63,928 nt of DNA, from positions 1 to 63,928 of IMG/VR virus record IMGVR_UViG_3300012147_000014; one strand, written 5' to 3'. Position 1 is the first letter of the stretch, and each line of letters begins with the position of its first letter. Shown here in pieces: positions 4,226 to 63,890 of the stretch. Position numbers and translations under genes: made by a program. The notes under the pieces were generated by a model. The model did not search any database and was not told the origin of the DNA. It was given only the letters and a program-made list of their open reading frames with translations. Source of the stretch: a virus.

Positions 4226-5251
4226 TTACGCCTCTGGGAATCCGTTGTGCTCAACTCCGTCAAGCAGGCGACCGGCGGCTTTCTTTCCGACCTTGGTTGC
4301 GACTAATCCGTCGCAAAAGTAATACTTTAGACCCGTCTCACTACTTTCATTGTCAAGCGGTGCCCATTCGCCCCACTGCTTGAACAAAAACGGCACGCCA
4401 GCAGCCCTACACTGGTCGCGGAGGCTCAGTGCCCACTCTGGGGACATGGGGCGCGCCTTAGCCCCGCTCTCGCCACCGCAGATCACCCAATCAATGCCGC
4501 GCAGCCATGGAGAGAACCCGCTTGGGGTTCTGGGGCGCAGATCGACCGCCCCGAGCATTGGCTCGCAGGAAAGAAAGCGCACCCGAGCGGGTATATCCAG
4601 TAGTGCTGGAATCCGCTTTTCAGCATTCTCTTGATCTTCGACAGTAGTGCCCATCCACACGTTGTGCGGAGGGTTTCCGGTGAGCCAATCGCGGAGCCAT
4701 TTAACCAAAGGGTTCGGGTCATTTGGGTTGTTGTGAGCCCTGCAAATCTCATACACCTCACGCAGCATCTTCTCTACGTTTTCAGGCCGCTTAGTGAGCA
4801 GTAGCCAATCAAGGCAAGGTGTGCGGTAAATTAGATCGAACAGCCGTAACCGCACAAGCGTCAGATCATCAAAAACATTATCGATCGTCCCGTCCTTCCT
4901 GATCGGGCCAACCTTCCCCCCTTGGTAGTCTTCGAATACATCGGCCAGACTGGCGCAAAAGACGCGCGGCCGCTCTGGGGGGACGTAACCATCTTCGCTG
5001 AAGTCATGCAGCTCGGCGTCTATTTCGTCCTCGGCTTCGCGGTTCCATCTCTCGGGCTCTCGCCACATTGATTCGCTCGCTACAATCCGAGAAGCATTCT
5101 TTCCCCATGTCTCAATCCCTTTACCTCGAGCCACGCGACTCGGGGCACTGATCTCTGCGTAACAGTTCGAGCAGCCGGCGCTTACTTTGAAGCAGCCGCG
5201 CCAAGGGTTGAAGGTGTGGGTAGTCCATTCGATTTTTGAATTCTTTGCCAT
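4226..5251 (-). CDS. DUF5131 (phage Gp37/Gp68 family) protein
   Basis: A 341-residue member of the Gp37/Gp68 family. Characteristic features are SKIEWTTHTFNPWRGC at the N-terminus, a CxxxxxCxxCYAE cysteine cluster, then DWLLLTKRPE, NVWMGTTVE, LSCEPMLG and WVICGGESG. The cysteine cluster and TIM-barrel-like spacing suggest metal or cofactor binding, but the biochemical role of the family is not established. It is common in phage early regions next to nucleases and methylases, as here. Confidence 0.9.
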   Translation of the reverse strand: MAKNSKIEWTTHTFNPWRGCFKVSAGCSNCYAEISAPSRVARGKGIETWGKNASRIVASESMWREPERWNREAEDEIDAELHDFSEDGYVPPERPRVFCASLADVFEDYQGGKVGPIRKDGTIDNVFDDLTLVRLRLFDLIYRTPCLDWLLLTKRPENVEKMLREVYEICRAHNNPNDPNPLVKWLRDWLTGNPPHNVWMGTTVEDQENAEKRIPALLDIPARVRFLSCEPMLGAVDLRPRTPSGFSPWLRGIDWVICGGESGAKARPMSPEWALSLRDQCRAAGVPFLFKQWGEWAPLDNESSETGLKYYFCDGLVATKVGKKAAGRLLDGVEHNGFPEA

Positions 5252-12851: not shown

Positions 12852-13106
12852 ATGAAAAGAGCCCTGATACTTCTATTCCTTTCCATTGCTCTAGTTTTAG
12901 GCACGGCCTGCACAAAAGAGCCGACCGGCTACGAAACTAAGATACATTTTGTCGTCGATAACGATTACTTAACGAACAAGAACTTTGAAGACTTGATGGT
13001 CGACAACTGGGAAGTTATCAATGTTCGTCGCGCGACCTCGACACGCTTTGGCCCGAATGAACGGTGGGGCAACGAATACACCATGCGAAAGGCTACCTAT
13101 GACTAA
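12852..13106 (+). CDS. Small lipoprotein, candidate conversion or exclusion factor
   Basis: 84 residues with a classic lipoprotein signal: basic N-terminus, hydrophobic core (LILLFLSIALVLG), then lipobox GTAC with Cys20. The mature part is about 65 residues. It is co-oriented with the HTH gene 9 bp upstream and its end overlaps the end of the integrase gene. Prophage-expressed lipoproteins in this position often block superinfection at the cell envelope; that role is inferred. Confidence 0.65.
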   Translation: MKRALILLFLSIALVLGTACTKEPTGYETKIHFVVDNDYLTNKNFEDLMVDNWEVINVRRATSTRFGPNERWGNEYTMRKATYD

Positions 13107-14242
13107 ACCTTAGCCAGCTCCGACCGCAAGTGCTCGATCCTGACATGGGTATAGCCTCGGTTAATTGACTTGTCTGAGTGGCCGACGAGCGCCATGCGAT
13201 CAACCTCAGAGACCCCGACCTCATTGAGCGCCGTGCTCAGTGCATGCCTGAACGAGTGAAACGAGTATTTGCTCTGCGTCCGGCCAGGCTGCCCCTTTAT
13301 GTATGGCTGCTCAATTCCGATCGCGGGCAAGATAGTCATCCGAAACACATGAGGAAAGCCTGCTGTGCCTGTCTGGGGCAGTCGCGATAGCTCTGGAAGG
13401 ACATAGCTACCCTTGAGCCTGCGGAACCACCAGCGTAGATGTCGCTCAAGCCTCGGGTGTATCGGCACCGCAAATAAGTCACGATTCTTTAGGCGAGGAA
13501 ATCGTATCACCGACTGCTCAAAGTCGACCGCAGCACGAGACAACTCTCGGCAGTCACGATCACGTTGACCAGTATAATATCCGATCAAGAATAGTATGCG
13601 CCACTCCGCGGTGTTTGTTCGTAGAAGCGCCTCCAGATGCTCGCGAGTGAATGGCACCTTCACGCTCGCATTTCGGTTCACTTTCACAGGCGTCAGTCCG
13701 ACGAACGGATTCTCGATCAAGACACCCTGAGCCAGCGCTTCACGGAACGCAGATTTCAGGAATACAACTTGATTCTTGATTGTGGCCGGAGCGGCACCTT
13801 TGACGAGTCGATCATCACGCCACTGAGCCAGCGCCGCCGTATCGATGAACGCCATAGGCCTGCTGGCCGCAGAACCCATGCCTACCAAAAATTGGTTGAT
13901 GTATTCGCGGTAACGCTTCCGGGTGCCCGCAACTACGTGCTTGGTGTTGACCGCGTAGAACCGGTCAAGGAATTCACGGGTGCTCGACGGATTGACTAGC
14001 GATCGCATGCCAGCCGCGCCCGCTATCTCGTCAAGGAGCGAAAGGACACGCTGACGAGTGAGTAGACCCCTCTTAGCGAGATTACCAGCCTGCTCAAGCC
14101 GTAAAGCAATCTGTAACGCTTCATTCTGATACTCCTTGGATTTACTCGTAAACCCTGTCGATACCTGCTTCCGCTTACCATTTGGTAGCGAGTAGCACGC
14201 CACCCAGCAATTTCGGTCATTTCTCCATCTTACACTTGCCAT
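13103..14242 (-). CDS. int: Tyrosine recombinase, phage integrase
   Basis: 379 residues from the ATG at 14242 (MASVRWRNDRNCWVACYS fits the usual arm-binding N-terminus better than the longer 14305 start). The catalytic domain shows Arg in YYTGQRDRDC, HSFRH (His-x-x-Arg), GHSD and the nucleophile Tyr in NRGYTH. The core-binding SAM-like domain covers residues about 75-160. The attP-like tRNA 3' end lies about 110 bp upstream of the start, the usual arrangement. Confidence 0.93.
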   Translation of the reverse strand: MASVRWRNDRNCWVACYSLPNGKRKQVSTGFTSKSKEYQNEALQIALRLEQAGNLAKRGLLTRQRVLSLLDEIAGAAGMRSLVNPSSTREFLDRFYAVNTKHVVAGTRKRYREYINQFLVGMGSAASRPMAFIDTAALAQWRDDRLVKGAAPATIKNQVVFLKSAFREALAQGVLIENPFVGLTPVKVNRNASVKVPFTREHLEALLRTNTAEWRILFLIGYYTGQRDRDCRELSRAAVDFEQSVIRFPRLKNRDLFAVPIHPRLERHLRWWFRRLKGSYVLPELSRLPQTGTAGFPHVFRMTILPAIGIEQPYIKGQPGRTQSKYSFHSFRHALSTALNEVGVSEVDRMALVGHSDKSINRGYTHVRIEHLRSELAKV

Positions 14243-14349
14243 AGGCAGAAACTGCGCCCACAAATTCGCCCACGCAACATTATTCACATTACTCGCATTG
14301 CGCACTTTTCTTATTAAAAAATACGTAATTGAAGTGTTTTTAGGTCAAT

Positions 14350-29388: not shown

Positions 29389-30375
29389 TTAGTCAGCCGA
29401 AGTCGGGATGAGGATACCGCAGTTCTCATTGACAATCTTCTCGTCCGTATTGTGGCGGACGCGAACAATATCAGAGCGGATTCCTTCTTCGCGGTAAGAC
29501 TCAGTTACGAAGAAACCGGGGGAATCTTCTTCCCATACAATTGTGCGGCCTGCGCCGCCTGCTTCGAGGACGCCGCCCATGACGCAACCCATCCAAATAT
29601 ATGATTTAGACCAGACAAATTCCATATCGGCTGCGGTGGCTTTGCCTGTCTTCTTCTTCGTGTTCTCGTAGGCCGATTGGCCGATATAGAGCCTGATTGG
29701 AAGCTGGAGCATTTCAGAAATAAAGGCTTCGACTGCGCCAACTCCCATGATCTTGCTGCTTGAGTTTGCGCCGAAGATGCGAGTCGAGAGTAGGGTCGAC
29801 ATACTAATGCGATCCCAAAGCTCGTCGCTCATGGCGATCGCATTGGGGCGCTCGAGCAACTTGAGCATTTGACTCTTCGCTGCCTTCATGTCCTGCAAGA
29901 AGTCGATCGTGGCGAGGTTGGCAGCCTCGTAGGCTTCAACCGGATCAAGGGTTGGAAACACGGTGGTGTCGAAAATCTTATTCTTGACCCGGATCTCGTG
30001 GTCGAGGCGGATGGTGCGAGTCACACGTTTGAGTGCCACTGTCTCAAGCGCATAGTAGCGGGCCTTGTCTGCCTTTTCGGAGTCGTCGACCGCTTCTTCG
30101 AGACCGCGATCCTTACAGGAGTAGCTATCCGCTTCGTCGGTACCATCAATGCGAGGGTAGGAAGAGCGGGGCGCGCGGAGCGTGCCATTGCCATCAGAAC
30201 TGCGAGCAAGCTGGCCTGTGCGGAGGCGGAGGCGCTTGTATTCGCCGGTCTTAGTGCCGTAGCCGACATAAGGCATGAGAGCCTGGCCGATGTAGCCTTC
30301 GTCGGCATACATTGCTTCTTCGACAACTGCTTGGAGATCAGGCCGGATTTCGGCGCTTGTATTTTCGTAGGCCAT
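29389..30375 (-). CDS. Major capsid protein
   Basis: 328 residues, typical length for lambda E-type capsid proteins of the HK97 fold. Features are MPYVGYGTKTGEYKRL near the N-terminus, ETVALKRVTRTIRLDHEIRV as spine-like helix, SMSTLLSTRIFGANSSSKIMG, and C-terminal FFVTESYREEG. It follows the decoration protein gene as D precedes E in lambda. Confidence 0.88.
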   Translation of the reverse strand: MAYENTSAEIRPDLQAVVEEAMYADEGYIGQALMPYVGYGTKTGEYKRLRLRTGQLARSSDGNGTLRAPRSSYPRIDGTDEADSYSCKDRGLEEAVDDSEKADKARYYALETVALKRVTRTIRLDHEIRVKNKIFDTTVFPTLDPVEAYEAANLATIDFLQDMKAAKSQMLKLLERPNAIAMSDELWDRISMSTLLSTRIFGANSSSKIMGVGAVEAFISEMLQLPIRLYIGQSAYENTKKKTGKATAADMEFVWSKSYIWMGCVMGGVLEAGGAGRTIVWEEDSPGFFVTESYREEGIRSDIVRVRHNTDEKIVNENCGILIPTSAD

Positions 30376-39724: not shown

Positions 39725-40378
39725 CTAAGCGTAAAGGCGCTCGCAGAACTGCTGAAGCGCTTGAAACTCTTGCCTGAGTTGTGCCTGAATAGCGAATTCC
39801 CATGTATCGACCGCACCGTGTTTGGCTTCCATATCTTCCGACCACCGGGTGAGCTTAATAAGAGTTATGGAGTGGGGCTCGGAGCCCCGAGAGTCATGGA
39901 TGTTTCCCTTATTTTCCTTCTCTTTCTGCAGCTCAATTGTAGTCACGACGCGGCCACGCTTGAGGGAGGCGTCCAGTTCGCGAGAAGAGAGGCGGAGGGC
40001 AGTCGCGGTTTCGATCCATTCGCGCCGGCCTTCATTGGTCTTCACCTTAGAGACGATCATGCGGTGCTGCGTGTAATCAAGGTTTTCGTTGCGCAACGAA
40101 ATCGGGAGATTGCGTGCCACGTAGGAAATGTCGGCAAGCGTTTGATAAGTCATTCCAGTGAGTTGCATCCACTCATCGTACTTACTGCCAAACTCGTGCT
40201 CGGCAAAATTGATTAAATCCCCTAAGCAAAACTGAGAAGTTCGGGTCAGTCGACCCACGTGTTCAATCGCTTTCTCGACGAGTTCCAGTGATGGCCGTCC
40301 GGATCCACTAAAGACAACCCCAGTGGGAGTCATTTCTATTCCAGTCGACGGCTCGTAAGGGATAGCTGCAAGTTCCAT
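39725..40378 (-). CDS. Hypothetical protein with phage ParB-like helical region
   Basis: 217 residues. The segment LGDLINFAEHEFGSKYDEW, MTGMTYQTLADISYVARNL-type spacing, then LDYTQHRMIVSKV is seen in a family of phage/plasmid proteins with ParB-like helical DNA-binding regions. Located 16 bp after a putative HTH gene near terminase. Could regulate late genes; unproven. Confidence 0.5.
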   Translation of the reverse strand: MELAAIPYEPSTGIEMTPTGVVFSGSGRPSLELVEKAIEHVGRLTRTSQFCLGDLINFAEHEFGSKYDEWMQLTGMTYQTLADISYVARNLPISLRNENLDYTQHRMIVSKVKTNEGRREWIETATALRLSSRELDASLKRGRVVTTIELQKEKENKGNIHDSRGSEPHSITLIKLTRWSEDMEAKHGAVDTWEFAIQAQLRQEFQALQQFCERLYA

Positions 40379-41092: not shown

Positions 41093-42958
41093 TTACTCAC
41101 CTACGTGAGGCGGTGCTAAGAGACCTGCAATCATCGATAGCGCGATAATCATGCGAGTGGTTGATCCGTAGTGATCGTCGGGCCGCATCTGGTGCCAATT
41201 GGTCGTCTGTGACCCGAATCGGTCGACCATTTGCACCCGGCGATACGCGGTGAGTTGCAGCTTGTATTCGTGGAGCTCAAAGGGGTCGGCTCCGCGCGGA
41301 TTTTCAGCCGAACGTGGAGACGGCATTAACCACGGGGAAGAGAGTCCGCGCATGAGCAGCTCCTGTCGTTCGAGCATGACAGCTTTCTTAAACAAATAGA
41401 GCTTAATTGGCGCACTCGCCCTGTAGCGACTGGTGCCGACAAAGGGCTCAAGGAAGCTGATCTGGTAAGGGAGTTTTACTCCGTCGACATTATAGTAATC
41501 GCCCTTATCGCCCATCATGGCTTTCCAGTTATAGGAGCCATCATTCATCAGCCCGCTTTCGACGATGTAGGTCGCCACTTCTTCAGGCACGAAGCGAGCA
41601 TCGATCCCGACCTGCGAGGCGGGCACCCGGTTGTCCTCTTGGATACTCCGGAGTTCAGCGGACGACCAAGCTTTACCCCACGCGACGGCTCGGCTTCCTC
41701 CACCCGGCACTACGTCGCGAACCTCCCAGTAAAAGTGGCGGCCTCCCTTGGCCTGCACATCGATCGCCATAAATCGGCGAGGTTTTGTGTGCTTACGCGA
41801 GTCCATATCCCATGCTCGCATTGCTTGCTCGAAGGGTTCCCATGGCGCGCGCGGATCATAGGGCGACTCACGCTGATCAATGAAACCATCATCGTGCTTG
41901 AACTTGAGCCTGTCTTCCCATGCTAATCCAAGGCTCTCCGTCCAGAAAACTTTGAACGGCTGGTGGTCTCCGACCTCTAGCGCCGCGGTACCCTTGATGA
42001 ACTCTTCGACCATTTCAGTCCACTTAGTCCACCACGGAAGTATTGCATTCCAGTTGTAGGAAGTTCGGTGGCTCGGAGATTTGTCGTTGTGCTCGACCCA
42101 TTGGCCTTGTCTTTGCAGCCGCTTGCGATCGGCGGGCGTGTCTTTCCACCGGTGATCACATTCAGGGTTCCAGCAGTCGTAACGCACGGTGCGGAAAACT
42201 TCTTGAAAATCCCAAGTTCCAGAGGGGCAGGTCGTTTCGTTGCGATCCCACTTCATCCCGCCCGAAACATCCTCGCGACCCCACTCGAGAATATGCTCAT
42301 TGCCGCAGTCAGGGCACGTGAGGTAAAACATGTTCTGGTTCCCGCTCAGGTAACCTCGGTGCAAGTGGTCTTGCTCCATGTCGGGTGTCGAGATAATGAC
42401 TCGCTTATAGTTGGGGTAGGAGCGCGTCCGCTTACTAAACATTTCCAACGCCCCCTTGGGCCAGCTCCGGACTTCATCACCGAAGGTGTATCGATACGGT
42501 GTCTGTTGCAGCGTGTTAGCGTTGTTAGCCGATCCAATGACGAGCTGTGCTCCCGGGAAGTAAACTTCGAGAGTGTTCTTCGCGCCGCGCTCTGTCGGCA
42601 AAGCGTCTTTGGCTGGTTGGCATTTTTCAACCATTGGCCAGAGTCGCCCTTTTGCGAATTTCTTGGCTTCCTGTTCGTTCGAGGTCGCCCACAAAGTCGG
42701 GCCCGGATCCATCGCAATCATGAACAAGAGCATCACCATTACGAGCACGGTCTTGCCGCTTTGTGCGCTACACATGCAGTAAATCTCGTGAATCTCAGGG
42801 TCTTGAAAGTCCTCTAGTATCTTACGCAGCCAGCGGGCGTCTTCGCTGTCCCACGGGGTTCCCTGCGGGGTGTTGGGCATCCGGATATACTTCTCCGCCC
42901 ACTCCCATATTACAACTCGGGCTGGAGGGGAAAGTGCGCTTCGCAAACCCGCCTCCAA
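41093..42958 (-). CDS. Terminase large subunit, GpA family
   Basis: 621 residues. Walker A-like CSAQSGKTVLVMVML and Walker B-like RYTFGDEVRSW, with GpA family stretches YCMCSAQSGKT, LYLTCPDCGNEHILEW-type zinc segment, and a C-terminal nuclease region with FMAIDVQ, VGIDARF, and DHYGSTTRMIIA. The family packages DNA from cos sites. It overlaps the small-subunit gene by 49 nt. Confidence 0.95.
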   Translation of the reverse strand: MEAGLRSALSPPARVVIWEWAEKYIRMPNTPQGTPWDSEDARWLRKILEDFQDPEIHEIYCMCSAQSGKTVLVMVMLLFMIAMDPGPTLWATSNEQEAKKFAKGRLWPMVEKCQPAKDALPTERGAKNTLEVYFPGAQLVIGSANNANTLQQTPYRYTFGDEVRSWPKGALEMFSKRTRSYPNYKRVIISTPDMEQDHLHRGYLSGNQNMFYLTCPDCGNEHILEWGREDVSGGMKWDRNETTCPSGTWDFQEVFRTVRYDCWNPECDHRWKDTPADRKRLQRQGQWVEHNDKSPSHRTSYNWNAILPWWTKWTEMVEEFIKGTAALEVGDHQPFKVFWTESLGLAWEDRLKFKHDDGFIDQRESPYDPRAPWEPFEQAMRAWDMDSRKHTKPRRFMAIDVQAKGGRHFYWEVRDVVPGGGSRAVAWGKAWSSAELRSIQEDNRVPASQVGIDARFVPEEVATYIVESGLMNDGSYNWKAMMGDKGDYYNVDGVKLPYQISFLEPFVGTSRYRASAPIKLYLFKKAVMLERQELLMRGLSSPWLMPSPRSAENPRGADPFELHEYKLQLTAYRRVQMVDRFGSQTTNWHQMRPDDHYGSTTRMIIALSMIAGLLAPPHVGE

Positions 42959-47952: not shown

Positions 47953-48621
47953 GTGCAACTTTTTATGAAAAATTATCTTATCCAAGAGGTTCAAGAGCGT
48001 TCGGCGCTCTACGGCTCACAAACACTCTCCGACCGCGAATTGCTGGCGCTTATCATCGGCAATCTCCCCGTCGCGACTGCCTTGCTCGACATGGGCGAGA
48101 GCCTAAACAAAATATCGAAGTGGAGCCTTGAAGAGCTTTGCTTCGTGCCGGGTATCAGTAAAGCCACCGCGTCGAAACTTATGGCGAGCTTTTCATTGTT
48201 CGCCCGTAGCGCTCCACTTGACCGTGGATGCTTCACTACTCCAGATGCAGTCTCCCGCTACATGCACCCATTGACCGCCCCTCTGACGGTCGAAAAATTC
48301 TGGGTGCTCTGCCTTGATCGTAAAAATCGGCTGCTCAAGCGTGTCGAGATCAGCAGTGGCACTGCGACCAGTTGCTTGGTTCATCCCCGCGAAGCATTCC
48401 GCGCTGCCATCCTGCATACCGCTACCGCGATCATTGCGGTGCATAACCACCCAAGCGGCGACCCTGCGCCGAGCCGTGCCGACATGCAAGTAACGAGACA
48501 ACTCCGTGAGGCTTCCAAGATTATCGGCGTTGACCTCGATGATCACATTATTATGGGCGAGCGCGAGTTAGACCCGCTTGGAATCGGTTACTACTCATTT
48601 AGCGAGGCGGGGCTCATTTGA
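47953..48621 (+). CDS. radC: RadC-like JAB/MPN domain protein
   Basis: 222 residues (218 from Met5 at 47965). The N-terminal helix-hairpin-helix region is LCFVPGISKATASKLMASF. The JAMM metal motif is intact: HNHPSGDPAPSRAD with upstream Glu in HPREAFRAA. RadC family proteins occur in phages and mobile elements and are thought to act on DNA repair or recombination intermediates, but the activity is unsettled. Confidence 0.9.
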   Translation: MQLFMKNYLIQEVQERSALYGSQTLSDRELLALIIGNLPVATALLDMGESLNKISKWSLEELCFVPGISKATASKLMASFSLFARSAPLDRGCFTTPDAVSRYMHPLTAPLTVEKFWVLCLDRKNRLLKRVEISSGTATSCLVHPREAFRAAILHTATAIIAVHNHPSGDPAPSRADMQVTRQLREASKIIGVDLDDHIIMGERELDPLGIGYYSFSEAGLI

Positions 48622-48658
48622 GCTCGGCTCCACCAACAACCACAAATCAAAGGAAACC

Positions 48659-49861
48659 ATGAATGCCGTATTATCGACAAAGAGTTCTACTATCCACATG
48701 AACGTCAAGACGCTGCAACGCGCTTTGGCCGTACTCGGAAAAATCGTACCGAACAGCCCCAAACTGCCCGTAATGGAGTGCGTTGTTTTCATGGATGGCA
48801 ACATCCACGCAAATGACTTTGACCGCGAGCTCGTCTGGCGCGGCACCTTTGATCGCGACTTTGCGGCATTGGTGCCGCTCAAGAAACTCGCGGCAGCTCT
48901 TAAATCTGCGAAGCCCGGCGACACCGTGACGCTCGTCACTGAGGGCGAGACTTACACGGTTACTAGCGAGGATCCGGACGTAAGTCCATACCCCGCCGAG
49001 CGCCCGATACTGACGGTCTCCCATGATCGAGGGAGCAGTCAAATCATCTGCCGCGAACTCGAGGAATACAACACGTTCCCCCGTGGCGATTCCTTGGGTA
49101 GCCGCACAATCCACTCCAATCTCGCCGAGGACTTGAGTGATGCCGTAAAATTCGCTTCTGCGGATGAGACCCGCTATATCCTGAACGGTGTATTTCTGTC
49201 CCGTGAAGGTGCGATTGTGGCGACAGACGGACGACGCCTGCTCAAGATACCTAGTGGGGATATTGCCTCTTTACCGCGCAGTGTGATTGTTCCCGCTGCG
49301 ACGGCCAAGCTTTTCAGCCTCAAGGCACTGCAGGAGCGACCTTGCTCCGTTGAGTTGTTCGCTCACGTGGCGTCCGATTCGAATCCCGAAAATGCAGAAG
49401 CTAAATCCGCCCAGATCATTTTGGGTGATGGCGAGTGGACGATCGTTACCACTCTCGTAGAAGGGAACTTTCCGAATTACAAGCAGGTGATTCCTAAAAG
49501 TCCGGGGAACTGGATAGGCTTTCTAAGGAAAGCCGACGCCGAGAAGATATCGGCCTTCCTCAAGTCTGCACCGAAGTGCGGAAAGGAAGGTTCCGTCGCC
49601 GTAAAGATTACCGCTGATGGTAATGCCAAGAGCTTGCGCCTTGATGCGGGCTCCGAGATTACGGGGCGCTCTTCAGTGACGATCAATGGCATTATGACGC
49701 CTTCGCACGAGACCGTGGAGATTGCCTTCAACGCGCCATACCTACTAGGAGCACTCGCCGCTGGTTGCCTGACCTGGGCATTCAGGGACGAATTATCGAC
49801 GATGGTTGCCACTGGTGAGGATCAGCGCCTAGCAGTCGTGATGCCTCTGCGCCTGAGTTGA
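48659..49861 (+). CDS. dnaN: DnaN-type DNA polymerase sliding clamp
   Basis: 400 residues from ATG 48659 (ribosome site AAAGGAAACC), close to bacterial beta clamps. Conserved marks are FASADETRYILNGVFL, ATDGRRLLKI, VEGNFPNYKQVIP (domain 3 loop) and C-terminal LAVVMPLRL, matching the VMPMRL ending. The clamp tethers polymerase to DNA. No phage DNA polymerase is seen here, so it presumably recruits or redirects the host polymerase. Confidence 0.92.
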   Translation: MNAVLSTKSSTIHMNVKTLQRALAVLGKIVPNSPKLPVMECVVFMDGNIHANDFDRELVWRGTFDRDFAALVPLKKLAAALKSAKPGDTVTLVTEGETYTVTSEDPDVSPYPAERPILTVSHDRGSSQIICRELEEYNTFPRGDSLGSRTIHSNLAEDLSDAVKFASADETRYILNGVFLSREGAIVATDGRRLLKIPSGDIASLPRSVIVPAATAKLFSLKALQERPCSVELFAHVASDSNPENAEAKSAQIILGDGEWTIVTTLVEGNFPNYKQVIPKSPGNWIGFLRKADAEKISAFLKSAPKCGKEGSVAVKITADGNAKSLRLDAGSEITGRSSVTINGIMTPSHETVEIAFNAPYLLGALAAGCLTWAFRDELSTMVATGEDQRLAVVMPLRLS

Positions 49862-50073: not shown

Positions 50074-50961
50074 ATGAGTAACGAAAATAAAATCAAAGCA
50101 CTACTGAAAATCTCCTTTAAGGCGACTGGCATCGGCCTCAACATTCGAGACGAGGCCATGGAAGCCGAACTAGCGCGCAATCACCAGATGGACGCGAAGC
50201 GTGTCCGCACTACCAAGAAGATTCTTGCTGGTGCGATCGATCCGATCAACTCGGAAGTGGGTAAGATTCGCCGATTCCTCAAGCTGAACTCTTTCGAGGG
50301 TATCGGTGAGACCCGCATCATGGTAGCGGCCGAGAGCGACCGCATTCGCCGTCAAGTGGCGGTTCGCGTGTCTGCGGCCTACGACGCGCTAGATGCTCTA
50401 ATCGCGGACTGGGACAACCTGATCGAGATTGAGCGCCGTGAACTCAACGGGAGCTTCGACCCGACCAACTACCCGTCGAGCGGTGAAGCCCTGCGTAGCC
50501 TATTCTCTTTCGAGTTGCAAATCGAACCCATGCCTGACCCGCATCAGTTCAGGCTCATCCAAGAGCTGACCGAGACTGAGCGCGAAGACATGGCCGTGCG
50601 CCTCGAAGTGCAGATTCAAGCCGCGCGCGCCGGCATGGAAGCTGATACCATTCGCCGCACGCTTGATCTGATCAAGGAAGTGGCCGATACGCTTGGAGAT
50701 CCTGACAAGCCGATCGTGGATAGCGAAGGCCGCAAGGGCTGCATCCCGAAGCTCCGCGACCATTTGCAACGTCTCCCCGACCTCAATATTGAGGGCAACC
50801 CTGTACTGATTCAGCTACGCGCTGAAGCACTCGCAGCCCTAGACCTCAATGCCGAGAACCTCCGCGCCCACAAGGGCACCCGTAAGCGCGTCTCCTTTAT
50901 GGCCGATAACCTTCACAAGAAGTTCCAAGGCAGCTTTGGCGACCGTGCCATCACCGCATAA
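50074..50961 (+). CDS. Hypothetical helical protein, 295 aa (DUF3150-like)
   Basis: 295 residues, almost wholly helical. Motif-like stretches are GIVEGIGETRIMVAAESD-type and DALDALIADWDNLIEIERREL. Overall pattern recalls DUF3150 proteins of phages that accompany AAA+ ATPases, and an AAA+ gene lies 3 kb downstream. The family assignment is tentative. Confidence 0.55.
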   Translation: MSNENKIKALLKISFKATGIGLNIRDEAMEAELARNHQMDAKRVRTTKKILAGAIDPINSEVGKIRRFLKLNSFEGIGETRIMVAAESDRIRRQVAVRVSAAYDALDALIADWDNLIEIERRELNGSFDPTNYPSSGEALRSLFSFELQIEPMPDPHQFRLIQELTETEREDMAVRLEVQIQAARAGMEADTIRRTLDLIKEVADTLGDPDKPIVDSEGRKGCIPKLRDHLQRLPDLNIEGNPVLIQLRAEALAALDLNAENLRAHKGTRKRVSFMADNLHKKFQGSFGDRAITA

Positions 50962-52805: not shown

Positions 52806-53210
52806 ATGAGCCACGAAATTAAAGGAACCATCGAGGTTAAAGACCTCACCGCATTCGCGAAAGCGATCGAAGAACTCAAGGGGCGCTTCCACAAAAACAA
52901 GCGCAGCTACACGATGTATAAAGGCCAGATGCCTTGCGACCACGCTGCCTCATTTGAAGGCGTCAACTACGAGATTGGCCTCAAGGAAGAGCCCACTAAG
53001 CGCGGCACCTACACTCCAGTATGGGACACCTACGGCTCCGGGGGTCGTCACGACGGCAAAATGCTCGTCGAGCGCTGCGGCAAAGACATGGGTAAGCTCA
53101 AGCAGAACTACGGCCTGCACGTGGCCGAATGTGCTGCAAAACGTAAAGGCCACACCACTCGTCGCAAGCAAAAAGCTGACGGCACAATTCAACTCGTTAT
53201 CGGAGGATAG
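52806..53210 (+). CDS. DUF1257 (Ycf35-like) protein
   Basis: 134 residues. MSHEIKGTIEVKDLTAFAKA, then ASFEGVNYEIGLKEE, YTPVWDTYGSGGRHDG, and LKQNYGLHVAECAAKRKG follow the Ycf35/DUF1257 pattern. These proteins are typically encoded beside DUF2997 and a Ycf46-type AAA+ ATPase, and both follow here. The molecular role is unknown. Confidence 0.75.
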   Translation: MSHEIKGTIEVKDLTAFAKAIEELKGRFHKNKRSYTMYKGQMPCDHAASFEGVNYEIGLKEEPTKRGTYTPVWDTYGSGGRHDGKMLVERCGKDMGKLKQNYGLHVAECAAKRKGHTTRRKQKADGTIQLVIGG

Positions 53211-53216
53211 CCACTA

Positions 53217-53399
53217 ATGCCTATCCCTCTTTGCACATACGAATTGGTAGGCGAAGACGACTGGAGTCGCGGCCTATATCGGAACGAAGCTGGCCGCACC
53301 GTCGTGGACGTAGATGGCCAGCTTCATTCAATCTCCGACTGGGGTGAGCCTATCTCGCTCATCGGATACCCAACACCTAAACCAGAAACAAAGGAATAA
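53217..53399 (+). CDS. Small protein, 60 aa
   Basis: 60 residues; YELVGEDDWSRGLYRNEAGRT is a short beta-sheet-like segment. Six bp after the Ycf35-like gene and 4 bp before DUF2997, so part of the module by position. Confidence 0.55.
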   Translation: MPIPLCTYELVGEDDWSRGLYRNEAGRTVVDVDGQLHSISDWGEPISLIGYPTPKPETKE

Positions 53400-53403
53400 T
53401 ATC

Positions 53404-53610
53404 ATGGCAAAAGAACACGTAACTATTGATTTCTCGCCTGACGGCTCCGTCAAGGTAGAAGCTCACAATTACACGGGGAACTCCTGCGAAGAGGCGACCC
53501 GTTACATCGAAGAAGCGCTCGGTGTCGAAGGCACAAGCAAGAAGAAGGCTGAGTTCTACAAAGCCTCCCGTAAGGTCAGCGCGAAGCAAAAGCTTGGGGG
53601 TGTCCGGTGA
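53404..53610 (+). CDS. DUF2997 family protein
   Basis: 68 residues. VTIDFSPDGSVKVEAHNYTG, then SCEEATRYIEEALGVEGTS and a Lys-rich tail match DUF2997, a companion of Ycf35 and Ycf46-like proteins. The GTG of the next gene overlaps its stop. Confidence 0.75.
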   Translation: MAKEHVTIDFSPDGSVKVEAHNYTGNSCEEATRYIEEALGVEGTSKKKAEFYKASRKVSAKQKLGGVR

Positions 53611-53879
53611 GTGGCGGGCATATCATCAACTTCCGTCCTGACGGATCATTCGACGGGCTCCACACTGACCGCACCGACCTCTCTGAGATTGGTAGCATGG
53701 AGGTGAGGCGCGCGTCTTGGGTGAATTTCAATGGCACTTCCCAGAAATGGGAAGTGCGCTGGAAGCCGCAGGCGAAAGCGTCCGTATTCACGCACGAGTC
53801 GCGCGAGGAATGCCTCGCGTGGGAGCGTGAGCAACTTCAACAGGAGCCCCCGTATGAACTGGAAACAGCGACTCATTAG
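53607..53879 (+). CDS. Hypothetical protein, 90 aa
   Basis: 90 residues from a GTG start overlapping the DUF2997 stop. IINFRPDGSFDGLHTD at the N-terminus resembles the start of DUF2997, so it may be a divergent paralogue. The C-terminal part is WEVRWKPQAKASVF and helical. Confidence 0.6.
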   Translation: MSGGHIINFRPDGSFDGLHTDRTDLSEIGSMEVRRASWVNFNGTSQKWEVRWKPQAKASVFTHESREECLAWEREQLQQEPPYELETATH

Positions 53880-54042
53880 CGAGGCCGTGAGCCGTGTCCG
53901 CGCGGTTCTCACCTTCAGCGCCGACGAGAAGGGAGCTCGCCTCAATGGAGGCATTCACCTCGATCATGGGCAGGGCGGCTACGAGTTACCGTCGCCCAAG
54001 AAACCAACACGCAAACGCGCTAAAAAGCGCACAACCCGATAA
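53854..54042 (+). CDS. Small basic-tailed protein, 62 aa
   Basis: 62 residues from ATG 53854, overlapping the previous gene. GGIHLDHGQGGYELPSP is similar to the C-terminus of the 142-residue first gene of this operon; a Lys/Arg-rich tail follows. Function unknown. Confidence 0.55.
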   Translation: MNWKQRLISEAVSRVRAVLTFSADEKGARLNGGIHLDHGQGGYELPSPKKPTRKRAKKRTTR

Positions 54043-54070
54043 CGGTAACCACTAATCAGAAAGGCAAATT

Positions 54071-55654
54071 ATGATCTCAAAACGAATCGAATACTACTCA
54101 CGGGCGGGCTACCCCTGCCTATTCATTCCGACGCACGAAGAGCAGCGGATCGGTCGCGAAATTATCGCTGGCCTACAAAGTATCACCAAGGACATTGAGG
54201 GCGAGCCATGCCCCGCCCGCGAGGTCTACTCGTGGTCTTGCACCCAAGGCCTGAACCGCGTCGACACCGAGGAAGCTGGCGACTCTGACATGGATAGTCC
54301 CGTTGAAGTCCTGCAGGCGTTCCTTAACGTGGCGCGTCCGGGATCCGTATTCATCCTGCAAGACTTCCACTTGTTCTTAGATGATCCTTCCCCTCACATT
54401 ATCCGGCTCTTCAAGGACGCACTGGAGCACGCTAAATCGCACCAGAAGATGATGATTATTATCGGCTGCCGCGTCGTGCTTCCGCCTGAAGTCGAAAAGC
54501 TTGTCACGCTGGTTGAGTTCAACCTCCCGACCACAGAAGAGCTAGCTGAAGTGGTGCTTGATCCGCTGGCCGAATCAACTGGCGTTGTGTTGACTCCCGA
54601 GGCTCGCCGCAGCCTTGCCGTAGCCGGTGGCGGACTGACTAGCTACGAGTTTCAAGATGCGCTTGCACTCTCCTACGTGGAGGCGAAGAACGAGCACGGT
54701 AAGCTTGAGTTCTCTGAGAGTGTTGTTTATCGCGAAAAGATTCAGAACGTCAAGAAAAGCGGGTTGGTCGAGCACATTGAAAGCAACCTCAACCCCGACG
54801 ACCTTGGCGGCCTTGACGTGTTCAAGGAGGCTATGGGCAAAGTCCGCAAGCTGTTCAGTCAAGAAGCGGTCAATTTTCGGTTGCCCGTCCCGAAGGGCTG
54901 CTTGCTTGTCGGCCCTCCTGGGTGCGGAAAATCTCTCAGCGCAAAAGTTAGCGCCGTAATGCTAGGAGGCATTCCACTTTTCAAGTGCGATATGGGTAAG
55001 ATGTTCGCTGGCATCGTCGGTGCTAGCGAGGCGAACATGCGCAACATGATCGACCTCGTGGAAGCCATGAGCCCATGCGTTCTCTGGCTCGACGAAATCG
55101 AGCGCGGTCTCTCCGGCGGAGAGTCCTCTGGCAAAACTGACGGAGGCACGACCGATCGGATGATCGGCACCTTGTTAAACTGGCTGCAGGAGAAGACGAA
55201 GCCCGTCTACGTTATCGCAACATCCAATGACACCTCTCAGTTGCCGGCTCAACTTTTGCGGGCTGGCCGCTTTGATCAGCTTTGGTTTGCCGACCTCCCG
55301 AACGAAGTTGAGCGTGTAGAAATTTGGAGCATTATGATTCGACGCACCGAGGGCGACCCAGCGAAATACGACCTCCCTATGCTAGCCGCCGAAACCGTAG
55401 GCTGGTCGGGTTCAGAAATCGAAGCACTCTGGAATGATGCGCGGATCGACGCCTTCGCTCGCTCCGACGACCCAGCGAGCCCGGAAGAGCCGCATACGCT
55501 TGAAATCTGCAATCTCTCAAGATTCCGCACCCCTCTTTCTAAGAGTCAGTCTGGCAAGATCGAGAATATGCGTAAATGGGCGGAAGCCCAAGCACGCCCC
55601 GCTACCTCTCCGCTCAAGAAGTCCCAAGCCAAGTCGGTTCGGGTCTTGAACTAA
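54071..55654 (+). CDS. Ycf46-like AAA+ ATPase
   Basis: 527 residues. The N-terminal degenerate half (AGYPCLFIPTHEEQRIGREI; VFILQDFHLFL; MIIIGCRVVLPPEVEKLV) is typical of Ycf46. The C-terminal AAA+ domain has Walker A GPPGCGKS, Walker B VLWLDEIE, sensor 1 VIATSN and Arg finger RAGRFDQ. Ycf46 proteins form ATPase rings with unclear substrates. Linked to Ycf35 and DUF2997 homologues in one operon. Confidence 0.88.
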   Translation: MISKRIEYYSRAGYPCLFIPTHEEQRIGREIIAGLQSITKDIEGEPCPAREVYSWSCTQGLNRVDTEEAGDSDMDSPVEVLQAFLNVARPGSVFILQDFHLFLDDPSPHIIRLFKDALEHAKSHQKMMIIIGCRVVLPPEVEKLVTLVEFNLPTTEELAEVVLDPLAESTGVVLTPEARRSLAVAGGGLTSYEFQDALALSYVEAKNEHGKLEFSESVVYREKIQNVKKSGLVEHIESNLNPDDLGGLDVFKEAMGKVRKLFSQEAVNFRLPVPKGCLLVGPPGCGKSLSAKVSAVMLGGIPLFKCDMGKMFAGIVGASEANMRNMIDLVEAMSPCVLWLDEIERGLSGGESSGKTDGGTTDRMIGTLLNWLQEKTKPVYVIATSNDTSQLPAQLLRAGRFDQLWFADLPNEVERVEIWSIMIRRTEGDPAKYDLPMLAAETVGWSGSEIEALWNDARIDAFARSDDPASPEEPHTLEICNLSRFRTPLSKSQSGKIENMRKWAEAQARPATSPLKKSQAKSVRVLN

Positions 55655-60932: not shown

Positions 60933-61856
60933 ATGAACCGAATTGAGATACCAAAGGGCAACGGCAAGACCCGCGTGATCTGGGTGCCGACAGCTACTGA
61001 AAAGCATATCGCTCGCGAAGTGCTCACCTCCTTGGAATCGGTCTATCGGCCTCGGGAGTGTGTTCACGGGTTTACCTTTGGGCGCAGTCCCGTCACCAAC
61101 GCACTCGCGCACGCGGGCGAATGGCGCTTCACCCTCTCGATGGATATTTCCGCGTTCTTTGACAACGTAGATGTTCGGAAGGTTACTGGGGTTATGTGGG
61201 CGGTAGATGGTGCCAACAACAGAGCCTTCGTGGAACACACTCCTGACTGCGATCTGCTCGCTTTCCCCGACTGTAGAGCCGTCCAAGGCCTGCCGTGTTC
61301 ACCTATTATCGCGAACATGGCAATGGATGATGCCGACGGCCGCATACTCGCCATGCGCGAGCAGTCGCGGCTTGGGTGGAATTTCGTCTACACTCGCTAC
61401 GCCGACGACCTGACCTTTTCCTTCAACCATCCTAATGTCGGGCGGCGCTTAATTGCAGCCATCCCGGGAGTGTTGGCCGACTACGGATTTGAGCTCAACC
61501 CGAGCAAGACGCACTGGCAGGAGGCTACCTGTGGCTACCGTAAAGTGACCGGCGTATCCGTGGGGAAGAGCAACATACATATTCCCCGATCAGTGAAGCG
61601 TAAAATCCGTGCCGCCGAGCACCAAGCTAAGGTCGGGATGAAGCCGAAAACTTGGGCGCGATTCGAGGGCAACAAATACCGCCAACAAGACCAACTCGAA
61701 GGACTCATGGAGTGGGCGACTCTCAAGCGTCCGAGGCGGCGCAGCACCGGCACCGTAGAATCGCCGCTGCCCGTCCACGGAAGTCGAGAAGTCCCTGGTC
61801 GGCCGCTCACTAGAAACACTTTCGCGACTGTCCAAGAGAGAGTCATCACGGCATAA
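60933..61856 (+). CDS. Retron reverse transcriptase
   Basis: 307 residues, the usual retron RT length. In order: RT1 IPKGNGKTRVIWVPT; RT2 with GFTFGRSPVTNALAHAG, containing the retron-specific NAxxH (NALAH); RT3 LSMDISAFFDNV; RT4 QGLPCSPIIANMAM; RT5 catalytic YTRYADDLTFSF; RT6 GFELNPSKTHW; RT7 YRKVTGVSV with the retron-specific VTG; then a basic thumb. It would copy msd RNA into branched msDNA from the tandem RNAs upstream. No fused effector domain. Confidence 0.94.
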   Translation: MNRIEIPKGNGKTRVIWVPTATEKHIAREVLTSLESVYRPRECVHGFTFGRSPVTNALAHAGEWRFTLSMDISAFFDNVDVRKVTGVMWAVDGANNRAFVEHTPDCDLLAFPDCRAVQGLPCSPIIANMAMDDADGRILAMREQSRLGWNFVYTRYADDLTFSFNHPNVGRRLIAAIPGVLADYGFELNPSKTHWQEATCGYRKVTGVSVGKSNIHIPRSVKRKIRAAEHQAKVGMKPKTWARFEGNKYRQQDQLEGLMEWATLKRPRRRSTGTVESPLPVHGSREVPGRPLTRNTFATVQERVITA

Positions 61857-61873: not shown

Positions 61874-62119
61874 ATGATTAAATCAAAATCCTTCGGACAA
61901 CTTGCAACAATGCTTTCAGAAAAGCACGGGAAAAACCGACTGCGGTCGCACTTAGGTTTGTCGTGGCGCGATTTCAATATGCGGTTAAAGGGGTACCTTC
62001 CCCCTGGCTCGCGTCAGTGGCTATTTAGAGCTGACTGGGCTGAGGCGAGCCAAGAGATAACAAATCAAAACCCGAACGGTTCAAGTGAGCCAACTCAACC
62101 AAAACCAAACCATGCTTAA
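61874..62119 (+). CDS. Small hypothetical protein, 81 aa
   Basis: 81 residues, basic (SEKHGKNRLRSHLGLSWRDFN could be a helix-turn-helix-like region). It lies 17 bp after the RT and overlaps the helicase start by 8 nt, so RT, this gene and helicase form one unit. Confidence 0.55.
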   Translation: MIKSKSFGQLATMLSEKHGKNRLRSHLGLSWRDFNMRLKGYLPPGSRQWLFRADWAEASQEITNQNPNGSSEPTQPKPNHA

Positions 62120-63890
62120 ATTCAAAAATTTCCAATTGGACGACCTGGCGCGAGCCGGCTGTCGTGATTCACTCATTCTCTCGTGGGACAAAGGCGGAGG
62201 CAAGACCTACGCCGCATTCGCGTGGCCTCTCATCAAAGACGCCAAGCGTGTTCTGATCGTCGCGCTCGAAGACCTGCACCCGCAGTTCAAGGACACGGCT
62301 CGACAGTTTGGCTACAGCCTGCTCCCACTTACGTCGATCAGCGACCTCTACTCGTGGAAGCTCGACAGGAAGAGCAGGGTCAATAAACCGCAGTTCTTCA
62401 TCACCACCTTCCAGCAGCTCGGCTACAACGCATCCGACGAAACCGCCGGCGAAGAAAAGTTCGATGGCTCCGTGGAGTATCCGGCTACAGTGATCAAGAG
62501 CCGCAAGCAACTAATCAAGGGCATGCAGTCTAAGGTGACTTTCTTGGAGCTTTCGGAGGGTGTCGGTGAATCTCAAAATGGTATTTTCTGCACCTTAAAG
62601 CCATCGCTCGCGACTATGCTGGCGACACACGACTCATTTGACTGCGTTGTGGTCGACGAAGGCGTGCGGCTCCAATCGACTGACTCCTATATTTCAAAGG
62701 GTGTCCGGCGGCTTGAGCCACTTTATCGAATGATTATGACCGCGACTCCGATCAAAAACCGACTAGAGTCGTTCTTTTGGCTCGGGCATTGGGTTGCAGG
62801 CTCTCCGAAAGTTGCAAATGAAATTTGGCCTTATGATCCCACTTCCGAGTCCCGTGAGCGTTTCGCGAATGACCACTCACAGGAAGATCGATTTCTCACG
62901 CGGGAGGACGTTTACTTCGAGACGAATCGAAAGACGAGGAAGATTGCCAAGCGGTCGGCGCGCATTTGCAACATTCACCGCCTATGGAAACTCCTCAGTC
63001 CGCTAGTTTTGCGCCGACGGAAGTGCGATTTCGGAGAGGATATTGTGCCGAAACTCTTTCATTTTGTCGCCGTCCCATTTGGCGCAGCGCAGAAAAACAC
63101 CTATCGGGAGTGGGTTGAGAATCCTCCGACGGTAACAAAGGATGGGGCGGATATTAAAAACGCCCGAGTTAGAGCAGCTATCCAAATCGGCTTGCTGCGC
63201 CAAGCGGCGCTCTGCCCAAATTCGATTAAGCTCTACCCTTATCAAAGTGGTGAAGCTATGACCCCGAAACTCGCCGCTGTTCTCGGAATTATTTCGGAGC
63301 GGTTGATGCTCGGCGAACAAGTGATGGTTGGATCAAGTTTTCACGACTTCTCTGAAACACTCGACGGCCTACTTCGCGGAGCTGGCGTGGCTAGTCTTCG
63401 GCTTGACGGCCTGACCGCACCAAAGAAACGCGGAGCTCTCGCTCAGAAATTTAAGAACCGGGAGTACTCTGTTATGGTTGCCGGCCAAAAAGCGATGTCG
63501 GAAGGCCACTCTTTCGAGTGCTGTAACAACCTTATCGTGCCATCGATTGATTGGGCGTTCGATGTGAACGACCAAATCATCGACCGGGTTCATCGGCTCA
63601 CCTCGACCAAGCCTGTAAATATCTGGATCATCCAAACGGATGATTCGATCGATCAGCCGATTGCCAAGCTCTTCAAGGACAAATCCGATTCGTCCAGTCT
63701 AGCTTTTGACGGGGTTCTGACGGAGGAAGTTATTCAGGAGGTGAGCCTTCAGCAACTTGCGAACACTGCCTGCGAAACTTTCAACTCGGCCTCACAGACT
63801 CTCGATGAGAGTGCTCTCTACGAGGACTGGATAGCCAAGCTGAAACCGAAGTTGAGAGAGGCTCAAGCTTGTTTCTGTGCGAAATCCTAA
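62112..63890 (+). CDS. SNF2/SF2-type helicase
   Basis: 592 residues from ATG 62112 (the frame extends to 62085). Motif I is SWDKGGGKTYAAFAW, the DEAH-like motif II is CVVVDEGVRL (His replaced), motif III is IMTATPIKNRLE. The C-terminal lobe has GVASLRLDGLT, MSEGHSFECCNNLIVPSIDW and DQIIDRVHRL (motif VI). Likely a DNA translocase of the Snf2 group. Paired with an NPPF methylase 2.5 kb upstream, as in anti-restriction or recombination units; role inferred. Confidence 0.85.
   Translation: MLKFKNFQLDDLARAGCRDSLILSWDKGGGKTYAAFAWPLIKDAKRVLIVALEDLHPQFKDTARQFGYSLLPLTSISDLYSWKLDRKSRVNKPQFFITTFQQLGYNASDETAGEEKFDGSVEYPATVIKSRKQLIKGMQSKVTFLELSEGVGESQNGIFCTLKPSLATMLATHDSFDCVVVDEGVRLQSTDSYISKGVRRLEPLYRMIMTATPIKNRLESFFWLGHWVAGSPKVANEIWPYDPTSESRERFANDHSQEDRFLTREDVYFETNRKTRKIAKRSARICNIHRLWKLLSPLVLRRRKCDFGEDIVPKLFHFVAVPFGAAQKNTYREWVENPPTVTKDGADIKNARVRAAIQIGLLRQAALCPNSIKLYPYQSGEAMTPKLAAVLGIISERLMLGEQVMVGSSFHDFSETLDGLLRGAGVASLRLDGLTAPKKRGALAQKFKNREYSVMVAGQKAMSEGHSFECCNNLIVPSIDWAFDVNDQIIDRVHRLTSTKPVNIWIIQTDDSIDQPIAKLFKDKSDSSSLAFDGVLTEEVIQEVSLQQLANTACETFNSASQTLDESALYEDWIAKLKPKLREAQACFCAKS

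Follow-up and report, generated by a model that had tools for sequence, protein, structure and literature searches.

What is a phage doing with Ycf35, DUF2997 and Ycf46, families that have gone unexplained for decades, yet are kept by chloroplasts, cyanobacteria and many bacteria and archaea? The question is raised by an operon at positions 52806–55654 of IMG/VR record IMGVR_UViG_3300012147_000014, which was analysed as one strand over positions 1–63,928 (this whole stretch is referred to as the window). Our analysis indicates that the operon holds a mobile-element variant of this long-unexplained module, and that this variant includes an unrecognised fourth protein, named D here. Our confidence in the module and in its mobile variant is high, while for the function it is moderate to low.

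The operon is compact and consists of six open reading frames (ORFs), A to F, all on the plus strand and separated, in order, by 6, 4, −4, −26 and 28 bp. A (52806–53210, 134 aa) is a DUF1257 protein of the Ycf35 type (PF06868), C (53404–53610, 68 aa) a DUF2997 protein (PF11211) and F (54071–55654, 527 aa) a Ycf46-type AAA+ ATPase (PF00004, AAA_lid_3, phrog_8638). The 60-aa ORF B (53217–53399) is preceded by a good ribosome-binding site (CGGAGGA) and had no relatives in Pfam and PHROG searches. D (53607–53879, 90 aa, phrog_38408 family) begins with a GTG that overlaps the stop of C, and is itself overlapped by E (53854–54042), a 62-aa ORF with a basic C-terminus and no relatives in domain and family searches, for which we are less sure that it is a coding gene. 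An earlier sequence-only reading had described this region as a tight operon of a DUF1257, a DUF2997 and a Ycf46-like AAA+ gene with three small genes. The arrangement was found as described, and the Pfam domain searches upheld all three identities and rejected none.

The module is not peculiar to this phage: it is also present in public phage genomes, plasmids, bacteria and archaea. By tblastn, F matched 127 records of phages and 714 of plasmids, of which 39 and 78, respectively, had a query cover of at least 80%. In INPHARED (50,697 records) all 17 records with a tblastn-detectable DUF1257 were among the 127 carriers of the AAA gene; these 17 are Pseudomonas, Rhizobium and Aeromonas phages and thus represent few genera and far fewer than 17 independent cases. 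Because every one of the DUF1257 records carries the AAA gene, the grouping of AAA, DUF1257 and DUF2997 is not due to chance. A further 21 IMG/VR contigs contain the module. Genome contigs were scanned as well, with loci fetched via the ATPase so that its presence is given by construction; this revealed all three genes in contigs of Myxococcota, Planctomycetota, Actinomycetota and in Asgard and other archaeal metagenome-assembled genomes, and a partial module in Clostridia and Spirochaetota. The phage copies are mostly unannotated, while both DUFs are annotated in Rhizobium phage RHph_I4. A survey of phages for the same gene order, as had been suggested, confirmed that the module recurs, but the order differs between phages. 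Because isolated phages that infect Pseudomonas aeruginosa, Rhizobium and Aeromonas carry copies, the function can be tested by experiment, in line with the earlier view that a phage version provides a useful handle.

The ATPase is the best defined component. In the Pfam search F matched PF00004 (AAA) with 92.6 bits as well as AAA_lid_3, and it matches the phage family phrog_8638 over its full length (2.5e-99). Its best solved relatives are the CDC48/p97 ATPases. The core residues comprise Walker A (281–288), F312, Walker B (D341/E342), the sensor-1 residue N386 and the arginine fingers R397/R400. G281, G284, G286 and K287 of Walker A, together with E342, N386, R397 and R400, are kept in 137/137 relatives, and D341 in 136/137. 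Position 312, which we take to be the aromatic pore-loop residue from general knowledge of FtsH and p97 and not from a structure, is Phe or Tyr in 110 of the 137. Judged by these residues, the AAA+ core of F is intact. F appears to belong to the p97/FtsH class of AAA+ ring ATPases, with an N-terminal region of the Ycf46 type, and would be expected to assemble into a ring. Full-length plasmid homologues, some of them cyanobacterial, show 33–37% identity over 97–99% of F; the plasmid copies of Pseudanabaena and Geminocystis align with 97–99% of F including the N-terminal region, in a comparison made with plasmid copies. In a tree, the window ATPase groups with other mobile copies and not with the bulk of the chromosomal ones, its exact place being not firm. 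The closest sampled copy by identity (44%) is located on a Verrucomicrobiota contig.

For A, the match to PF06868 was marginal (23.4 bits at a cut-off of 22.2), with residues 20–131 aligned to the whole profile; a profile iterated on phage relatives, which includes A itself, gave 127.6 bits. C scored 52 bits against PF11211 (cut-off 24.1) and has the Gly14, Gly25 and Cys28 that are invariant in 46 aligned rows of DUF2997, the Cys core being present in 67/67 sequences. The two DUFs tend to occur together: 45 phage/virus loci with a full-length ATPase had both in 18, one only in 4 and neither in 23 cases (Fisher 1.3e-8), and the AAA-bearing genome contigs had both in 23, one only in 13 and neither in 44 (Fisher 2e-9), values that ignore the relatedness of the loci. 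In three clostridial loci (L113, L140 and L096) DUF1257 and DUF2997 are one protein. AlphaFold2, supplied with 71 aligned rows, modelled the L113 fusion as a compact single unit (pLDDT 91.9, pTM 0.84), in which a C-terminal hairpin of DUF1257 (105–119) is followed by a hairpin (125–141) and a helix (145–158) of DUF2997. The model suggests that one composite sheet extends across both domains. On the basis of the natural fusion and the compact model, DUF1257 and DUF2997 probably form one subunit, and the fusion with its confident model is a ready construct. Comparison of the model with the PDB gave no match with E < 0.04. KA1-like structural matches span both domains (residues 85–160, best Z 6.2); this Z is too low to claim a KA1 fold and within the range of common arrangements, so that we read no function from it.

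The fourth protein had been described as resembling a DUF2997 paralogue, if we take the small gene meant in the sequence-only reading to be D. The D and DUF2997 profiles align over 16 columns only, a strand-PDG-strand hairpin (hhalign probability 88%). D neither matches PF11211 nor has the G..C core of DUF2997, and it has a family of its own over its full length (phrog_38408, E 1.6e-7). Since only these 16 columns align, we consider D a distinct family. The gene after DUF2997 in Rhizobium phage RHph_I4 matches phrog_38408 at 7e-56. The best evidence for D as a genuine part of the mobile form comes from a search independent of the ATPase, in which 195 Verrucomicrobiota genomes were searched for D by profile and for DUF2997 by Pfam. 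We found 8 copies of D in 6 genomes and 12 copies of DUF2997 in 9, and all eight D genes lie on the same strand as a DUF2997 gene and within about 260 bp of it. D is a fourth conserved, previously unrecognised member of the module in its mobile-element form. Single-sequence scans of viral contigs with the window DUF1257 and D revealed no close relatives. The structural model of D is weak (pLDDT 71.5, pTM 0.55) and gave no structural match, and a beta-trefoil was dismissed because a stretch of 18 residues underlies the profile matches to designed beta-trefoils.

Chromosomal and plasmid modules frequently contain another protein, K2, which corresponds to PF13353 (Fer4_12)/radical SAM. Within 79 module loci K2 was present in 15 and D in 23, and the two were never found together. 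K2 was found in none of 28 viral loci within the roughly 6 kb read on each side, and the D-bearing bacterial loci among the 79 were all from Verrucomicrobiota, so that the mutual exclusion is confounded by the split between phages and bacteria. It nevertheless yields a concrete hypothesis on what the complex exchanges. No Fer4_12 protein is encoded in the window; at the level of whole records one scored above the cut-off in 2/29 phage/virus records with the module and in 14/14 control genomes. As all control genomes have such a protein, the function could come from the host.

Upstream of the operon, not adjoining it, lies a gene for a 295-aa protein (50074–50961, plus strand) that matches a custom DUF3150 profile built without it (E 2.8e-12). 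The members of this profile exceed the Pfam cut-off for DUF3150, but the window protein had no match to Pfam DUF3150 (PF11348) at E 0.5 and is therefore named DUF3150-like only. With the window counted, 12 of 28 module-bearing viral loci have a DUF3150-like gene. A profile search of whole records found none in the Rhizobium, Pseudomonas, Aeromonas, Rhodobacter and Agrobacterium phages searched, and a plasmid search with a phage DUF3150 gave no match. It is possible, if rather doubtful, that phages and mobile elements have reshaped the Ycf35-DUF2997-Ycf46 module into their own system, a five-part AAA+ machine (AAA, DUF1257-DUF2997, D and the DUF3150-like protein) with D in the place of the radical-SAM protein, which would act on phage replication or takeover proteins.

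The wider surroundings of the operon agree with the phage setting assumed at the outset. The window encodes an integrase (13103–14305), a major head (capsid) protein (29389–30375) and a large terminase (41093–42958), all on the minus strand, and from this combination it is a tailed phage and probably a temperate one. The module is part of a rightward block that includes a RadC-like JAB-domain protein (47953–48621, plus strand; PF04002, 136.8 bits) and a DnaN-like sliding clamp (48578–49861, plus strand; phrog_947, 6.5e-37), continues with the DUF3150-like gene, the module and a methyltransferase-like gene, and extends to a reverse transcriptase of 307 aa (60933–61856, plus strand; PF00078, 76 bits) and, at the right end of the record, an SNF2-type helicase (62085–63890, plus strand; PF00176, PF00271). 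The reverse transcriptase has PADLOC matches to retron-type and RT-fusion families and may belong to a retron or another RT-based defence. Distant from the module, at 4226–5251 on the minus strand, a phage-family protein with DUF5131 (PF07505, 271 bits) has a Cys-rich start resembling radical-SAM proteins. At the DNA level, window positions 40000–63928 had no match to phages, and scans for promoters and terminators gave matches no commoner than in shuffled sequence.

The gene set of the window recurs in the same order in mobile elements of Verrucomicrobiota. Six loci were extended: DUF1257, DUF2997 and D are present in all of them, a DUF3150-like gene in five, and an ATPase with 40–42% identity to F in the stretch read in five. 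Several of these loci also contain relatives of the RadC, DnaN or integrase of the window phage, and in the eight Verrucomicrobiota mobile loci RadC was found in five and DnaN in three. Three Verrucomicrobiota loci with a DUF2997 of chromosomal type (L188, L192 and L193) have the ATPase and DUF1257 without D, and their ATPases are 33–34% identical to F. Matches to the capsid protein were found in 6/195 Verrucomicrobiota genomes versus 4/200 genomes of the Stutzerimonas phylum. It is the common gene order that favours Verrucomicrobiota, and a host in this phylum is plausible.

How does the operon compare to known systems? It resembles the cyanobacterial and plastid Ycf46 (slr0374-type), as cyanobacterial plasmid homologues cover 82–99% of F with 32–36% identity, but F is phage-borne, and its operon also contains DUF1257, DUF2997 and D. 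The ferredoxin gene fed7 of Synechocystis is clustered with DUF2997 and ycf35 (PMC4284462), and we found DUF1257 and DUF2997 side by side in two cyanobacterial genomes. Unlike the Synechocystis cluster, the phage operon, which shares this pair, has no ferredoxin or radical-SAM gene, has D and the AAA+ gene, and starts with DUF1257. The plasmid module of Paenibacillus pPPM1a, with similar ones in Paenarthrobacter and Rhodococcus, likewise has AAA, DUF1257 and DUF2997 in one operon and adds a Fer4_12/radical-SAM protein where the window operon has D. The Rhizobium phages RHph_I4 and L338C, Aeromonas phage HJ05 and Pseudomonas phage PA_L9 carry AAA, DUF1257, DUF2997 and D in a stretch of a few kb, but the AAA gene comes first and other proteins lie between. 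RHph_I4, HJ05 and PA_L9, the three of these that were searched with the DUF3150 profile, further differ from the window in having no match to it. Replication-initiator genes follow directly downstream of the module in the Rhizobium and Aeromonas phages and in two IMG/VR phages. Plastid ycf35 and ycf46 are absent from many freshwater red algae (PMC5940233). We found no paper describing the module in phages, in a literature search largely without subscription journals.

Taken together, we see about an even chance that the operon encodes a phage version of a widespread complex that remodels proteins with the energy of ATP and is used in phage DNA metabolism. It is fairly likely that the proteins of the module form one physical complex. 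The F ring would pull on or remodel protein, possibly by threading. The composite DUF1257-DUF2997 subunit would be its adaptor or co-factor and would present substrate or sense a metal or redox state, with the invariant DUF2997 Cys in a thiol, metal or redox function. The mobile-element form would have two accessory subunits, D and the DUF3150-like protein encoded upstream, in place of the radical SAM protein that bacterial forms often use. The choice of target would lie with the variable partner (radical SAM/ferredoxin in bacteria, D in mobile elements). The complex would assemble, activate or dismantle a protein complex, and among possible substrates a replication or takeover protein is the likeliest. 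A role in DNA metabolism is suggested by the position of the module in the RadC-clamp-DUF3150-methyltransferase-helicase block and upstream of replication initiators in other phages; for this part taken alone we consider the chance to be somewhat below even.

Several points weigh against this explanation. The AlphaFold model of the fusion was built without the ATPase, so that an adaptor role is outside its reach. The neighbourhood argument is weak, as phage early regions mix functions, and the window and the Verrucomicrobiota elements are the only places where DnaN and RadC were found close to the module (RadC also in one archaeal contig), for which reason we rejected them as general companions of the module. 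According to Jiang et al. 2015, as cited in PMC7496141, loss of Ycf46 in cyanobacteria lowers the activity of the extracellular carbonic anhydrase EcaB, a finding that suggests a different role. Moreover, 20 of 21 phage ATPase loci of a second type, named c3-type after the protein c3 that they contain (e.g., L005, L024, L028 and L033; usually with a further protein, c9), have neither DUF, which implies that the ATPase can work without DUF1257/DUF2997.

Could the operon instead serve in conflict, either as a defence against competitors or as a counter-defence that inactivates a system of the host, with the AAA+ protein as its motor? The distribution of the module is patchy, its bacterial forms are located on plasmids and genome contigs, some of them next to an MkoA-like helicase, a VWA protein or a 615-aa protein, and there are weak pVip-like matches for the radical-SAM partner (1.5e-6). 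F itself matched only IetA ATPases in PADLOC (5.5e-20), but this match covers the shared AAA core and excludes the N-terminal region, and against NF042959 F reached 73 bits at a cut-off of 510. The protease partner in ietAS is a subtilase, and the domain search of the six-gene operon revealed no protease family in A–E. Neither DUF1257 nor DUF2997 nor D matched a PADLOC family, and the phage module sits among replication genes. We regard a conflict function as unlikely.

An auxiliary metabolic role, in which a module acquired from the host Ycf35/Ycf46 system would tune iron-sulfur or carbon metabolism of the host during infection, appears improbable. It would fit the fed7 cluster (PMC4284462), the finding that slr0374 (Ycf46) is in an operon responsive to iron and sulfur deficiency (PMC7496141) and the radical-SAM protein adjoining many bacterial copies. 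The carrier phages, however, infect non-photosynthetic hosts (Pseudomonas, Rhizobium, Aeromonas), Fer4_12 is absent from the window and scores above the cut-off in only 2/29 module-bearing phage or virus records, and the window ATPase falls with the mobile and not the bulk chromosomal copies, even if its place is not firm. That the genes are unrelated passengers lying together by chance is hardly credible: gene order does vary from phage to phage, with unrelated small genes in between, but the genes co-occur in phages, plasmids, bacteria and archaea, two of them are naturally fused, and D adjoins DUF2997 in 8/8 cases.

Some further ATPase loci deserve mention. The 23 viral loci without either DUF are mostly of the c3-type and include Corndog-type mycobacteriophages, for which the AAA ATPase has been listed without a role (PMC4351075). 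The c3-type ATPases form one branch of the tree with a support of 99. Comparison of c3 with DUF3150 by hhalign gave 78% over 92 columns, and c3 may be distantly related to this family. The small protein c9 starts with an invariant MxC and ends with an HSHDxG motif; that it is a disguised DUF2997 was rejected (hhalign 16% over 18 columns). In bacteria and archaea, at L102:7629–9476, L103:7624–10911 and relatives, copies of the ATPase are accompanied by an MkoA-like helicase of 1,100 aa, and these loci also encode the 615-aa protein, which is of no known family; they may represent a distinct conflict system. In myxobacterial, deltaproteobacterial and Treponema contigs (L101, L109, L115, L119, L130 and L148), proteins of a cluster named K3 are encoded beside the ATPase; one of them, in L119, contains a von Willebrand factor A domain.

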